Shown here in pieces: positions 1-6,139 of a stretch of DNA of 6,139 nt. The stretch is from NCBI GenBank assembly GCA_016186945.1, contig JACPKR010000070.1, positions 1 through 6,139 on the forward strand. Direction: 5' to 3'. The translations under genes were made by a program, and so were the position numbers. The notes beneath the pieces were generated by a model. It was not told the DNA's origin, did not search any database, and saw nothing but the letters and a program-made list of their open reading frames with translations. How positions within the stretch are numbered: the first letter of the stretch is position 1; every line of letters starts with the position of its first letter. The DNA is from Deltaproteobacteria bacterium. GTDB lineage: Bacteria > Bdellovibrionota_B > Oligoflexia > Oligoflexales > Bog-1112.

Positions 1-93
1 ACCATCTACCATCGAAGACAAGCCTGTTGCCGTGGTGGGGCCAAAACTGCTAATCAAATAATCAGTGTAAAGCTCAACATCCTGTTTTTTCAT
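1..93 (-). CDS. Transposase N-terminus, IS4/IS701-like (partial)
   Basis: An ATG at 93-91 on the minus strand opens a frame with no stop before the window edge, giving 31 residues beginning MKKQDVE and containing LYTDYLISSFG followed by TTATGL. This start is what I recall from DDE transposases of the IS4/IS701 kind; the family name rests on memory of that motif and no catalytic residue is visible. The frame is identical to the one at 6046-6139. AGGG sits only one base ahead of the ATG, so initiation looks weak. The gene is cut by the window boundary and need not be broken in the genome. Confidence 0.65.
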   Translation of the reverse strand, partial: MKKQDVELYTDYLISSFGPTTATGLSSMVDG

Positions 94-135
94 CCCTATT
101 GTTTAGCAGAAATATACGGAGTGCGTAACATCAGT
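1..135 (-). mobile_element. Left IS end, inverted copy of the right end
   Basis: These 135 bases are an exact reverse complement of 6004-6138 (position i pairs with 6139-i; the match breaks at 136/6003). The inner tip reads ACTGATGTTACGCACTCCG when read outward from the gene cluster. Inside it lies the start of a transposase-like reading frame running off the left edge. The outer end of the element is not in the window. The true tip may begin at the A or the C of the tip sequence, because one base can match by chance. Confidence 0.8.
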
Positions 136-139
136 AAAT

Positions 140-190
140 TATATGAATTTACCAAACTGGATTTAAAAACAATCAAAAACTATATGAATT
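140..190 (+). repeat. Direct repeat TATATGAATT, two copies
   Basis: TATATGAATT occurs at 140-149 and 181-190, 41 bases apart start to start, close to four helical turns. Flanking bases partly agree as well (A, then T or C before; T or C, then A after). Spacing on one face of the helix fits a pair of regulator sites. The AT-rich setting raises the odds of a chance match. Confidence 0.4.
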
Positions 191-1652: not shown

Positions 1653-2638
1653 CTTTTGTTCTGACCCTGGCGACGGCGTCTTCACCGTCACTAGGGTTTC
1701 CCAATGTTTGCGACCTTATTCGGTCTGATAAGTTTCGTGACGCGCTTGACTACAGCTACAGTTACACTACCTGTGAAGGCTTTCCCTTTTCGAGGCCCTG
1801 TGCCAGATTCAGCTATTACCTTCCCAAGTACTTCATCGAGGTTGTCAGCAATCCCAAAGAAACCTATTTTCGCGAATTACCAGGTGTTGCTATGCAACTC
1901 AACTTTACGGCGGGAGGTCTTCCCACCGGCACCGATGACGATATGGGATCGTATTCTTATCAAGCCCACGCGATTCGGGTACCATTTGCCAGTTGGGCGT
2001 TTGAAGGAATGCCATGTTCGGGTGAACTTCCCGACCTCTTTTGTTTTTCTGCAATGAGTGAGCATCTGGGATTAAATTGGAAAACGGGTGCTGCCGACCT
2101 ATCGCAACTGAAGTTTCTCGCTTGGTCCCAAAGCCCGAAAGCCTGCCTCCTAGCAGGAGCCGCCACATCGACGAGTGGCAGTTGGAGCGGAGGCCTCGGT
2201 CAGGATGTGAAAAGCTGTTCGTTCAATCTGCAATGGATACCGAAGTATCCGCCATCGCTACAACCGATCTGCACGGGATGGGGCGTGCATTTTCCCCGTA
2301 CAGGTACCGTGACGTCCTCTGACACCACGACAGGTTCTTTAGTCATTGCTTCGAGGATCAAAAGCCTGGGAGCCGAGGTTTTTCAAAACATAAGTATATC
2401 GCCGGATGAAAAATGGCAGATGGTCTTCCCACAAATGTCATCGCCTTTCAGGGAGGGGCAAAACGTTGCGTTTCTCCGAACCAAGGGTGTTACCGAGGTC
2501 GGCAGGCTATCAGGAAATATAAAAAACTACCTCTACGCAATCTGGCAAAAGACCACTTGCAAAAGGGACATTCCCCACATTTGGGAAGCAAAACTTTGGC
2601 TGGGTGAAATTGCAACGGCATGCAGGGTTTTACAATGA
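1640..2638 (+). CDS. traU: TraU-like F-type conjugation/pilus protein
   Basis: The 332-residue product is a secreted, cysteine-rich protein resembling TraU and the related TraU-like family of integrative conjugative elements. The signal peptide covers residues 1-19 (MFRLAFVLTL, then a small-residue end SLG). The region CEGFPFSRPC followed by FSYYLPKYFIEVVS matches the family's early Cys-rich segment and strand. Near the C-terminus YLYAIWQKTTC resembles the family's aromatic-Trp-Cys ending. There are ten cysteines (24, 45, 54, 126, 135, 169, 193, 211, 307, 328), consistent with disulfide bonding in the periplasm. Length matches F TraU (about 330). TraU is needed in F for DNA transfer and efficient pilus formation. 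The ATG at 1640 is chosen because GGAG at 1627-1630 is nine bases upstream and it starts directly with the signal peptide; the ATG at 1625 has no SD. Its stop overlaps the ATPase start (ATGA). Confidence 0.85.
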   Translation: MFRLAFVLTLATASSPSLGFPNVCDLIRSDKFRDALDYSYSYTTCEGFPFSRPCARFSYYLPKYFIEVVSNPKETYFRELPGVAMQLNFTAGGLPTGTDDDMGSYSYQAHAIRVPFASWAFEGMPCSGELPDLFCFSAMSEHLGLNWKTGAADLSQLKFLAWSQSPKACLLAGAATSTSGSWSGGLGQDVKSCSFNLQWIPKYPPSLQPICTGWGVHFPRTGTVTSSDTTTGSLVIASRIKSLGAEVFQNISISPDEKWQMVFPQMSSPFREGQNVAFLRTKGVTEVGRLSGNIKNYLYAIWQKTTCKRDIPHIWEAKLWLGEIATACRVLQ

Positions 2639-4215
2639 GATTTGGAGAATACCTACTCAGAATGGGAATCATCCATGAGCAGGACATTCGTGAGGTCTTG
2701 GCCCTGCAAAGGTATCGAAAGAGAAAGTTGGGGCGACTGTTAGTCGAGCTTGGAAAATTGACCCCGTCCGATCTCGATGTTTTGTTACGACAATACTTGA
2801 AACCTCTTTGTGAGCTTGGATTTCAGGAATTGAAAATCAGGGCTTCAAAAATTAAAACTAACGAGAGTGATCAGAAATTTTTCCGAAGCAAGAATATCGT
2901 GCCAATCGAACTCACGGATGGCGAGATCACTATTATTGGATGCGTATTCGCGGACGCTTTGATTGAAGAGATAGAAGACAGATTTAAAAGATCAGTGACA
3001 TTTGCGGTTGTGGAACCTCACCTGTTGGATCTGGTTGCACGAACTCCGACGACGAAAACAATAACGACCAAACATTTGATAACGGTTACTCAGACCGTTC
3101 ATGACGATGACAAACTCACAGAAGATAACCCCTATACAAAACTTCTTTGGGAATGTGTCAAAGCAGCGAAAGACCTTGGGGCAAGCGATATCCACTTTGA
3201 ACCTTTCGATCTTGAATATTTCATCCGGTTTCGCACCCATGGTCAGCTAAACGATTGGAAGAGGTTAACAATTGATCATGTACAGCCTTTGACGGCGCGC
3301 CTTAAACACCTGGTGAATATGGATCTTGCGGTGGTCGGTATGCCCCAGGATTCAAGGGCCGGCTTTCATACGCTTGGCATCGATGTTCGAGCTAGCTCTA
3401 TGCCAGTCAGCAGCGGTGGAGAGAAGATCGTTCTGAGGCTTCAATACCGAGACAAGAAGCTCGACATCCGTGACCTTGGTTTGTCTGACGCAAAACTTCA
3501 GGTCTTATTGGACAGCATCGGTAAAAGTGATGGATTGATTCTAATCTCGGGACCAACTGGCAGCGGTAAGACAACAACGCTGTATGCGTTGCTCGAAGAA
3601 ATGGACCGACTCGGAAAAAACATTTCGACCCTCGAAAATCCAGTAGAAAAACAACTTCCGCGAATCAATCAAGCGGATATCTCTGATCACCGCGACTTTG
3701 CCAGTTTTCAGCGCGCTTTGATGCGCCAGGATCCGGATGTCATTCTTCTGGGAGAGATTCGCGACGCGCAGACTGCTGATTTGAGCATGAAACTCTCCTC
3801 AACTGGGCATTTGGTCCTTTCGACCATTCACGCTAACGGCGCCGTGGAGGTCGTTGATCGTCTTGCAAGTCTAGGGGTCGATAGCTTTTCAGTTCGCTCC
3901 AACCTCAGGCTTTCAGTTGCGCAAAGACTTCTTCGCACGATTTGTCCCCACTGTAGTCGGGTAGCTCCCTTTGCACTCAAACGAAAATTCGGAACACTTG
4001 AAAGCGAAGATTTTCGCATCACCAACTTAGACGGATGCAAGCACTGCTATAAGGGAGTGACGGGCCGAAGGGCCGTCATCGAGTTTTTGGGCAGGGAGGA
4101 GATTAACAAAATGGGAAACTCAACCCCGTGTGTCTCAAGTTCGCTTTTTGACGAATGTCTGGACTTGGCGAAGTCGGGGTTGATTGATATCCGGGATGCC
4201 CTTCACTACGCATGA
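2635..4215 (+). CDS. GspE/PilB-family ATPase with MshEN-like N-terminus
   Basis: The 526-residue product is a cytoplasmic hexameric-type secretion ATPase of the type II secretion/type IV pilus class. In order it shows: an N-terminal GspE_N/MshEN-like domain with two 24-residue motifs at 2-25 and 31-54 (R/K-x-G...L...G...L/I...L pattern) separated by five residues; a domain with ASDIHFEP at 183-190; Walker A GPTGSGKTTT at 306-315; an Asp-box-like LENPVE at 333-338; Walker B VILLGEIRD at 369-377; a His-box GHLVLSTIHANGA at 391-403; and the zinc-type tetracysteine pair C437-C440 and C468-C471 followed by GVTGRR. All nucleotide-binding motifs are intact. Start at 2635 (ATGA overlap with traU) is preferred over ATG 2620, because residue 2 then begins the first motif. 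It is closer to GspE/PilB than to VirB11 or to PilT, which lacks the N-terminal part and the cysteines. Being inside an F-type operon it probably powers pilus or channel assembly; c-di-GMP binding is inferred. Confidence 0.93.
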   Translation: MRFGEYLLRMGIIHEQDIREVLALQRYRKRKLGRLLVELGKLTPSDLDVLLRQYLKPLCELGFQELKIRASKIKTNESDQKFFRSKNIVPIELTDGEITIIGCVFADALIEEIEDRFKRSVTFAVVEPHLLDLVARTPTTKTITTKHLITVTQTVHDDDKLTEDNPYTKLLWECVKAAKDLGASDIHFEPFDLEYFIRFRTHGQLNDWKRLTIDHVQPLTARLKHLVNMDLAVVGMPQDSRAGFHTLGIDVRASSMPVSSGGEKIVLRLQYRDKKLDIRDLGLSDAKLQVLLDSIGKSDGLILISGPTGSGKTTTLYALLEEMDRLGKNISTLENPVEKQLPRINQADISDHRDFASFQRALMRQDPDVILLGEIRDAQTADLSMKLSSTGHLVLSTIHANGAVEVVDRLASLGVDSFSVRSNLRLSVAQRLLRTICPHCSRVAPFALKRKFGTLESEDFRITNLDGCKHCYKGVTGRRAVIEFLGREEINKMGNSTPCVSSSLFDECLDLAKSGLIDIRDALHYA

Positions 4216-4229
4216 AAGGAGCTTTCAAA

Positions 4230-4958
4230 ATGAGATTGGTCACTATCTTAATCTTCCTGACTATTGCCCAATCGATCCTTGCGTTTAACTACTTTGACAG
4301 GAAAATTGACTACTGGGGCAGTGATCGCACTACCAACCCTCCACTGAGGGAAAAAGAACCCGACAAACCGAATCCACCTGCCTTTGATTGGTCCAAGTAC
4401 AGCAACCCAAAAAGCGATGAGTTTTTCAAAGAGGGTAACTATACTCCTCCGAAACCCTTGATGGAGCTGGCACGCAATCCAAGCGATGAAAATATTCGCA
4501 ACTGGTTTAGGATCATTGAAACCAAAAACAAACTGATGGCAGCTTTACAGGAGAGGTTTACCGAATACCTGCAAACTAATAAAACAACTCTGACTGAGGA
4601 ACAAAAAACAACCGTAGAAAGGAAAGTAGAAAGCCTTGAAATCGGCAACCATGATGTGAGGCGATTTCGTTTCAGGCTCTATTTTGACTCAAGCTGCCCC
4701 CACTGCAAGAACATGATCGCAACCATGAAGGAGCTACAAGAGTTGGGTTACTATGTGGAGGTTCACCAAATAGATCGAAGGGTACCGGAATATTCCGTGC
4801 CATTTCCCATCATCCCAGCTTCTGAGAAGGATATCCGAGAGCGCAATATTTCGTCGTGGCCGACTCTATTTGTAGCAGATACCACAAAAAAGCTTACCTA
4901 TCGTATCAACGGTTACCTACCCCAAGATCAAGTCTTGGCCATTTTATCCACAAAATAG
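4230..4958 (+). CDS. traF: TraF-like thioredoxin-fold conjugation protein
   Basis: The 242-residue product is predicted periplasmic, with a signal peptide at 1-18 (MRLVTILIFL to a cleavage after ILA). A proline-rich stretch (about 40-75) and a helical part with NPSDENIRNWFRI (83-95) match the usual TraF layout. The C-terminal thioredoxin fold (about 146-242) has an active-site CPHC (C156, C159), a cis-proline loop SWPTLF (209-214) and a terminal GYL helix. F-plasmid TraF lacks the CxxC while F TrbB has it, so this protein may unite the two roles, acting on disulfides of the Cys-rich TraU. ATG 4230 is chosen because AAGGAG at 4216-4221 lies eight bases upstream and it starts at the signal peptide; the ATG at 4212 overlapping the ATPase stop has no clear SD. 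The name could equally be TrbB-like. Confidence 0.87.
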   Translation: MRLVTILIFLTIAQSILAFNYFDRKIDYWGSDRTTNPPLREKEPDKPNPPAFDWSKYSNPKSDEFFKEGNYTPPKPLMELARNPSDENIRNWFRIIETKNKLMAALQERFTEYLQTNKTTLTEEQKTTVERKVESLEIGNHDVRRFRFRLYFDSSCPHCKNMIATMKELQELGYYVEVHQIDRRVPEYSVPFPIIPASEKDIRERNISSWPTLFVADTTKKLTYRINGYLPQDQVLAILSTK

Positions 4959-4980: not shown

Positions 4981-5364
4981 ATGAGTGATCATGCGATAGC
5001 CCAGTCGATGTTGTTTTTTAGCCGGCATCCGAGAGCAAAATTTTTGGTTCCTTTGGGATTTGCCCTCTTGGCCCTGTTGTTTGCTTCTCCCGTTCTATGT
5101 GACAGGCTCCCCGGCAACGATCAATTTGACAAGCTGACCGCAGCCGGAGACCTGTTCAAAACCCTCGATAGTTTCGTTTTCAGAGTAGGAGCGCGCTTAA
5201 TGGCTGGCCTGTGTGTTCTTGCCGCGGGATGGAATCTTAAAGAACAACGTTTTGCAACCGCTGTGATCTGTGTCGTCGCTGCCATTGTCATCGCGACCGT
5301 TCCGATGTGGATCAGCAACATTTTTTCGATCGGTGGTGGCAGTATCTTCGCGCCCCCTAAATAA
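4981..5364 (+). CDS. traA: TraA/VirB2-like propilin candidate
   Basis: The 127-residue product has the layout of conjugative propilins: a long leader with basic residues then a hydrophobic stretch (about 21-39, PLGFALLALLFASPVLC), a short polar stretch with LTAAGDLF, a first membrane helix (about 67-84), a short charged loop (NLKEQR, 85-90) and a second membrane helix (about 91-112). F TraA also has a long leader (51 residues) and two such helices. The Gly-rich tail GGGSIFAPPK extends beyond the second helix. Sequence identity to TraA is weak, and the call leans on topology and on the traL-traE genes that follow, as in F. AAAGGAG at 4969-4975 lies five bases before the ATG. Alternatives are another small inner-membrane VirB2/TrbC-type subunit. 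Confidence 0.7.
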   Translation: MSDHAIAQSMLFFSRHPRAKFLVPLGFALLALLFASPVLCDRLPGNDQFDKLTAAGDLFKTLDSFVFRVGARLMAGLCVLAAGWNLKEQRFATAVICVVAAIVIATVPMWISNIFSIGGGSIFAPPK

Positions 5365-5374
5365 GGAAATTACA

Positions 5375-5686
5375 GTGCATAACTATGACTCCATGAAACA
5401 AAAGCATGTCCGGAAGGTTTGCCAGACTATCGACAGCCCCATAACTATTTTTGATTACTTCGAGCTGGGAGAAATGATGGTGGCTTTACTTGCGATGATG
5501 ATTTTTGGAATCGTCATTTATTCCTGGAAGCTGATGTTTCTAAGCTTGTTCGTTACCCTTGGAATCGGACCTGTCATTCGACGTCGCAATAAGGCCGGCA
5601 TTTTTCTTCATTTACCGTACAGGCACTTGCGGATGTCACTTCCGGGTCTCGTCAATCCAGGAGGACATAAACGTTTTTCAGATTAG
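5375..5686 (+). CDS. traL: TraL-like pilus assembly membrane protein
   Basis: The 103-residue product fits TraL, a small inner-membrane protein of F-type pilus assembly (VirB3-like role). Features are an N-terminal ITIFDYFELGE stretch leading into membrane helices (about 33-49 and 51-65), a basic loop (RRRNKAG, 69-75) and a C-terminal end HLPYRHLRMSLPGLVNP, the Tyr/Gly-Leu ending typical of TraL. The GTG at 5375 is chosen: AAGGA at 5363-5367 lies seven bases upstream, overlapping the propilin stop. An ATG at 5393 would give 97 residues but has no good SD. The frame stays open upstream to 5270 inside the propilin gene, but that extension is not supported. It sits ten bases after the propilin, and traE starts seven bases after its stop, a layout that matches F. 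Confidence 0.85.
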   Translation: MHNYDSMKQKHVRKVCQTIDSPITIFDYFELGEMMVALLAMMIFGIVIYSWKLMFLSLFVTLGIGPVIRRRNKAGIFLHLPYRHLRMSLPGLVNPGGHKRFSD

Positions 5687-5693
5687 GAGCCAA

Positions 5694-6008
5694 ATGATGA
5701 TCAATGGAAAGGATAAGAATATCGGGGGAACCAAGATGCGGATTCCTCCGCCACCATCTAGAGAGGAGTTGAAGTTCCTGCCTAAGTATATTGCCTACAA
5801 GGCTGCCCTTTTAAGGGAAAAGCTCGTTCTCACGTACGTTATTGCAACTCTGATGGTTCTTTTTGCCGTTCACTTTGCAGTAACCAGGTTTGAAATCTCT
5901 AACCTTTACGAACAGCTTCGCACCAAAGAATACATCTTAGCCCCAGGAGTTCAGGATTTTACGACTGTTTCGCCCCAATCCGTCCCGGACGACTATATTA
6001 GTAACTGA
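5694..6008 (+). CDS. traE: TraE-like pilus assembly protein, truncated by IS
   Basis: The 104-residue product matches the first half of TraE (about 190 residues in F; VirB5/VirB8-like inner-membrane component). Residues 20-45 are a cytoplasmic lead-in (PKYIAYKAALLREK), about 46-64 a single membrane helix, and 70-104 a periplasmic beginning with KEYILAPG and SPQSVPDDYIS, like the family's conserved Pro-containing strand and Tyr-Leu region. The frame enters the inverted IS end at 6004 and stops at TGA 6006-6008 inside it, so the last residue straddles the junction and the C-terminal half is missing. ATG 5694 and ATG 5697 are both possible; AGGAG at 5685-5689 gives four or seven bases spacing, favouring 5697 slightly. 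The protein is probably non-functional in this copy. Confidence 0.75.
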   Translation: MMINGKDKNIGGTKMRIPPPPSREELKFLPKYIAYKAALLREKLVLTYVIATLMVLFAVHFAVTRFEISNLYEQLRTKEYILAPGVQDFTTVSPQSVPDDYISN

Positions 6009-6139
6009 TGTTACGCACTCCGTATATTTCTGCTAAACAATAGGGATGAAAAAACAGGATGTTGAGCTTTACACTGATTATTTGATTAGCAGTTTTGGCC
6101 CCACCACGGCAACAGGCTTGTCTTCGATGGTAGATGGTG
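6004..6139 (+). mobile_element. Right IS end, inverted copy of the left end
   Basis: Bases 6004-6138 are the reverse complement of 1-135 without mismatch. The element interrupts traE and reads rightward out of the window, opposite to the left copy, so the two IS copies point away from the gene cluster. The tip begins at ACTGATG or CTGATG, similar in its first bases to tips such as CTGATG of IS10. The far end and any target duplication are outside the window. Confidence 0.8.
6046..6139 (+). CDS. Transposase N-terminus, IS4/IS701-like (partial, right copy)
   Basis: This is the same 31-residue start as on the left, MKKQDVE then LYTDYLISSFG and TTATGL, open to the window edge. AGGG at 6042-6045 abuts the ATG, a poor SD spacing. 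The identical coding sequence in both copies, with no mismatch, implies recent transposition or one element counted twice by assembly. Family placement depends on recollection of the N-terminal motif and needs the full element. Confidence 0.65.
   Translation, partial: MKKQDVELYTDYLISSFGPTTATGLSSMVDG

Follow-up and report, generated by a model that had tools for sequence, protein, structure and literature searches.

A traffic ATPase with an apparent c-di-GMP motif at its N terminus lies inside what looks like an operon for F-type conjugation: what does such an enzyme do there, and does c-di-GMP control it? The stretch of DNA analysed here (the window) is an entire contig of 6139 bp, and an earlier note on it had proposed that the motif binds c-di-GMP and gates pilus assembly or conjugation. 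We addressed the two halves of the question in turn, beginning with the operon and the class of its ATPase and then asking what its N-terminal domain can plausibly bind.

An F-type operon with a resident traffic ATPase

All genes of the window discussed here are encoded on the forward strand. Two proteins with little besides sigma-70 region 4 head the operon, one at positions 316–798 (PF08281, E = 8.8e-10), a probable operon regulator found at the same place in related operons, and the other at 1272–1652 (PF04545, E = 2.6e-11); this arrangement, with the first of the pair conserved, suggests unusual transcription control. Between them lies a conserved 135-aa operon protein without a family match (863–1270), which has counterparts by position in L027 and L047. 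TraU follows (1625–2638; PF06834, E = 1e-11) and overlaps the start of the ATPase gene, beyond which come a TrbB-like periplasmic thioredoxin-fold protein (4212–4958; Thioredoxin_2, E = 1.1e-6; TIGR02738 TrbB, E = 1.7e-7, sub-cutoff), a candidate pilin (4981–5364), TraL (5375–5686; PF07178, E = 0.0055, sub-cutoff) and the first 106 residues of TraE (5697–6005), recognized by homology. The candidate pilin, a small hydrophobic protein, had no family match in a Pfam-type profile search, and its putative identity comes from its position and two hydrophobic stretches.

The traE gene is split by an IS701-like element, whose end is present as inverted copies at window positions 1–144 and 5995–6138 and occurs at seven places in the genome; the other part of traE begins a second contig of the same genome, C62 (start of locus L058). 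There it is followed by TraK- and TraB-like, TraC_F_IV, TraH- and TraG-like genes, of which TraC_F_IV was assigned by model and the others by position and resemblance. Several relatives have a full-length TraE. Because traE is interrupted in the window genome, this copy of the operon may be inactive, or heterogeneous within the population. An FtsK/SpoIIIE-type ATPase is encoded after traG on the second contig (L058:8518-10131) and is possibly the coupling protein of this branch.

The operon type itself, as named in the earlier note, is correct: the window contributes TraU, a weak TraL match and TraE, and the second contig TraC_F_IV. A related operon, L047, has Pfam matches to TraU, TraE, TraK, TraB/TrbI, TraV, TraC_F_IV, TraH and TraG_N. 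Some single matches are sub-cutoff, and the gene set and order agree in placing these loci in the F-type (MPF_F) group. TraL, which forms a conserved family, was used as the query for a collection scan that returned 13 loci with related operons, in metagenome-assembled genomes named Oligoflexales, Bacteriovoracales, Bdellovibrio, Halobacteriovorax and others. The order traU–ATPase–trbB–pilin–traL–traE is common to the loci examined, with the ATPase gene immediately 5′ of the gene for the thioredoxin and, in every locus but L036 whose upstream gene is complete, directly 3′ of traU. Bacteriovoracales-type loci additionally carry sigma-54 activator response regulators upstream on the opposite strand (L043:1790-3289, L048:2732-4219 and L052:724-2127).

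The ATPase gene occupies positions 2635–4215 and encodes 526 aa; its ATG at 2635 overlaps the traU stop codon (ATGA). The protein belongs to the GspE/PilB class of traffic ATPases, as seen from a T2SSE domain (PF00437, E = 3.9e-87), a Walker A motif GPTGSGKT (residues 306–313, positions 3550–3573) and four C-terminal cysteines forming a zinc-type motif. Walker A, the H residues and the four cysteines are invariant across 7 relatives. Membership in this family would also be expected of an ATPase of type IV pili or type II secretion lying beside the tra genes by chance, a reading that we consider very improbable and that synteny and the tree already contradict. First, the order traU–ATPase–trbB is fixed in many genomes and the two reading frames overlap. 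Second, the protein scores far below the cutoffs of the NCBIfam equivalog models for PilB (315 versus 676 bits) and GspE (295 versus 630 bits). Third, PilB genes are present elsewhere in the genome, and a scan of ten operon genes of L047 found neither PilC/GspF nor a secretin. Finally, a tree of 35 ATPases sets the F-operon enzymes apart from PilB and GspE with support of 98/98; this group includes one stray long-branch row, L062, and constraining the F-operon rows to a single clade was not rejected (p-AU 0.42). The protein is also far below the cutoff of the VirB11 model (TIGR02788; 48.6 bits against 250).

Within the same tree, the nine members that bear an MshEN domain cluster together (support 87/77). 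The remaining F-operon members have no such domain or, in L036, another N terminus: the ATPase of that locus (L036:7964-9523) has a different N-terminal region of about 150 residues. Some of the sister operons without MshEN have a further peculiarity, in that TraU forms the C-terminal part of a protein of about 1000 aa (L033:1327-4326, L035:3191-6190, L038:5890-8880 and L032:1300-4320). In the three that were scanned, L033, L035 and L038, the N-terminal part of this protein matches TrwB/TraD coupling proteins, an apparent coupling protein–TraU fusion.

We found no description of a GspE/PilB-class ATPase in F-type operons in the open-licence literature. Among the places listed from the plasmid and phage collections, identity to the ATPase does not exceed about 41%, and the three plasmid matches inspected belong to clusters for type II secretion or type IV pili rather than to F-type operons; a TraU search of the plasmid collection and a TraL search of the viral contigs gave no match. 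That many Bdellovibrionota-type genomes have a PilB-class ATPase as a constant component of their F-type operons is a more solid novelty than any gating by c-di-GMP.

The MshEN motif and its predicted fold

The c-di-GMP-type motif in the window ATPase is real. Motif I (residues 2–25, positions 2638–2709; RFGEYLLRMGIIHEQDIREVLALQ) and motif II (residues 31–54, positions 2725–2796; KLGRLLVELGKLTPSDLDVLLRQY) are joined by the linker RYRKR (positions 2710–2724), which comprises 5 or 6 residues in relatives. Motif I retains R2, G4, L22 and Q25 and has F, not L, at position 2; motif II retains K31, L32, G33, L47 and L51. The 53-residue stretch agrees with 20 of 22 consensus positions, compared with a best of 14 in 20,000 shuffles of the same residues and a runner-up of 13 among the 11,962 six-frame 53-mers of the window. 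The consensus allowed R, K or L at position 1, an extension following PMC11731258, and hydrophobic residues at position 2. Residues 2–51 also match NF053729, the NCBIfam model of the MshE-related c-di-GMP motif, with 44.9 bits (cutoff 38; E = 7e-12). The two 24-residue motifs and 5-residue linker described previously are thus confirmed, and the residues had been assigned correctly, including a lysine for the initial R and a tyrosine for the final Q of motif II. The Pfam MshEN profile, PF05157, which the earlier note had put forward as a check, scored 14.6 bits against a gathering score of 23.1 and aligned to residues 79–129; being sub-threshold and placed elsewhere in the protein, it was set aside as a motif test, and the question was decided by the motif-specific model.

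The same note had called for a structural comparison with MshE. AlphaFold2, given an alignment of seven relatives, confidently predicts a domain (positions 2635–3045) made of a four-helix subdomain (residues 1–56) and an alpha/beta subdomain (residues 57–137), with a mean pLDDT of 84.2 and values of about 85 or above over residues 1–130. The top solved matches of this model are PilF GSPII-B (8pfa) and MshE (5htl), with VIA Z scores of 9.6 and 10.6 and a Foldseek E of about 1e-6; c-di-GMP is bound in both structures. Superposition of the whole domain on MshE is loose, with an rmsd of about 8 Å, so the mutual angle of the two subdomains probably differs from that in MshE. An AlphaFold model of the whole protein, with a mean pLDDT of 67, was poor and was left unused. 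Taken with the motif model, the predicted fold makes the MshEN assignment a good one, and the domain is kept in eight related loci. The MshEN layout is in itself ordinary for the GspE/PilB family; the unusual feature is that an F-type operon has such an ATPase as a constant component.

The putative c-di-GMP pocket across the family

Comparison of the nine MshEN-bearing members separates the parts of the pocket that are kept from those that have drifted. The glycine at position 3 of both motifs is invariant, and the lysine at position 1 of motif II and the hydrophobic residues at positions 17 and 21 are kept in 9/9 members. Position 1 of motif I is R, K or the initiator M, and position 2 is Phe throughout. 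The window protein has both glycines and hydrophobic residues at positions 2, 17 and 21, position 17 being Ile. Gly10 is lost from motif I in three members and from motif II in one. Of the two terminal glutamines, which contact ribose and phosphate, the window protein has Q25 and, in place of the second, Y54. Across the family, the motif I Gln is present in the window protein and five others but replaced by Ala, Ser and Ala in the window protein's three nearest relatives, and that of motif II gives way to Tyr in eight members and to Phe in the ninth. Q53 was considered as a register-shifted motif II Gln and rejected, its site being Q, G, D, R, N or E in the family and the adjoining residue Tyr or Phe throughout. 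Since the motif II Gln is missing from every member and the motif I Gln from the three nearest relatives, the window lineage shows no clear sign of selection for binding.

This pattern can be set beside pockets characterized by mutation. In PilF GSPII-B, single Gln-to-Glu changes raise the KD from 6 nM to 950 and 460 nM, and the double change Q190E+Q218E abolishes binding (PMC11731258). PilF GSPII-A, in which both Gln are replaced, does not bind, and for measurable binding both Gln had to be restored together with the Arg of motif II (PMC12002112). At position 1, PilF GSPII-B natively has Lys in motif I and Leu in motif II with high affinity, and Lys or Leu there is tolerated and can even raise affinity (PMC11731258); the Arg-to-Lys change in motif II of the window protein is therefore no serious problem. 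In MshE, changes to conserved hydrophobic residues cost more than tenfold in affinity, and changes to Arg9 or Gln32 reportedly about fivefold at most (PMC5013675). The PilF data are an indirect guide, by analogy, to the window protein, as Tyr is not Glu.

How should the domain be read, then? One possibility, to which we give even weight, is a degenerate MshEN fold that binds no c-di-GMP and serves docking or assembly only, like the N-domains of XpsE and GspE. The glutamine losses across the family and the failure of both the double PilF mutant and GSPII-A to bind point this way, as does the complete absence of the domain from sister operons. By contrast, the glycines, the motif II Lys and the hydrophobic positions retained in all nine members, several of which XpsE has lost (PMC5013675), argue against this reading, as do the motif I Gln of the window protein and five others, the submicromolar affinity left in the single PilF mutants and the modest cost of the MshE Arg9 and Gln32 changes. 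The chance that the window protein binds c-di-GMP with useful affinity is, from these comparisons, somewhat under one half.

The stronger proposal of the earlier note, in which c-di-GMP bound to the domain gates the assembly of F-type pili or conjugation, appears unlikely. It draws on the motif score, the motif model, the predicted fold and the presence of c-di-GMP enzymes in the genome, as well as on the importance of c-di-GMP binding to MshE function in Vibrio cholerae (PMC5013675). The host genome has 4 GGDEF genes and 5 PilZ genes, so c-di-GMP is probably made in the host. Against gating stand the glutamine losses and the neighbourhood, where a test of ten proteins (response regulators, sigma54 activators, histidine kinases and solute-binding proteins among them) turned up no GGDEF, EAL or HD-GYP.

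A proposed motor in the VirB11 position and its known counterparts

Most Gram-negative type IV secretion systems require a VirB11 ATPase; the F plasmid system, curiously, does not (PMC12857230). Given an F system without VirB11, the simplest reading is that a lineage-specific PilB-class ATPase would fill the VirB11 slot. We think it rather probable that the window protein is such a dedicated traffic ATPase of the Bdellovibrionota-type F-type (TraU/TraC/TraH/TraG) type IV secretion system, in which the MshEN domain of one subclade would be a regulatory or docking module. The enzyme would form a hexamer, a GspE/PilB-class motor sitting where the transfer machine has its base at the inner membrane and where other systems have VirB11, and would power or switch pilus assembly and DNA export. 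The remnants of the window pocket (both position-3 glycines, the hydrophobic clusters, the R/K stacking residues and one of the two Gln) make roughly micromolar c-di-GMP binding plausible; in the closest relatives of the window protein the pocket has diverged further, and c-di-GMP binding may be absent. We estimate it as quite improbable that, in one branch, c-di-GMP directly controls a PilB-class ATPase that powers or switches F-type conjugation.

The proposed ATPase role would place a motor in the style of type IV pili on a DNA-transfer machine that classically has none, in bacteria related to predatory species. A conserved PilB-class ATPase in F-type operons is a natural test case for how F pilus extension and retraction are controlled. 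The MshEN-bearing branch lets c-di-GMP gating of conjugation be asked directly; if true, it would tie DNA transfer to a life-style switch governed by c-di-GMP. The MshEN pockets of the family, which in nature have lost one Gln or both, form a series that is also useful for defining what the motif needs.

Four known systems frame this proposal. The operon shares with F plasmid Tra the set TraU, TraL, TraE, TraK, TraB, TraV, TraC, TraH and TraG, and differs from it in including a GspE/PilB-class ATPase. Like VirB11, TrwD and DotB, the window ATPase is a traffic ATPase encoded inside a type IV secretion operon, presumably in the same slot, but it is of the GspE/PilB class, with four cysteines, and carries MshEN. 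Its N-terminal domain resembles that of V. cholerae MshE (5htl; PMC5013675) in the 24+5+24 layout, the predicted four-helix and alpha/beta fold, the retained glycines and hydrophobic positions and its place on a GspE/PilB-class ATPase, whereas MshE Gln61 and Leu10 are replaced by Tyr and Phe, and MshE belongs to a type IV pilus operon, not one for F-type conjugation. PilF GSPII-B of Thermus thermophilus (8pdk, 8pfa; PMC11731258) is the top solved fold by Foldseek E-value and likewise allows Lys at motif position 1, but it has both Gln and a motif II shorter by one residue, and PilF, with three such domains, is an ATPase of type IV pili and DNA uptake.
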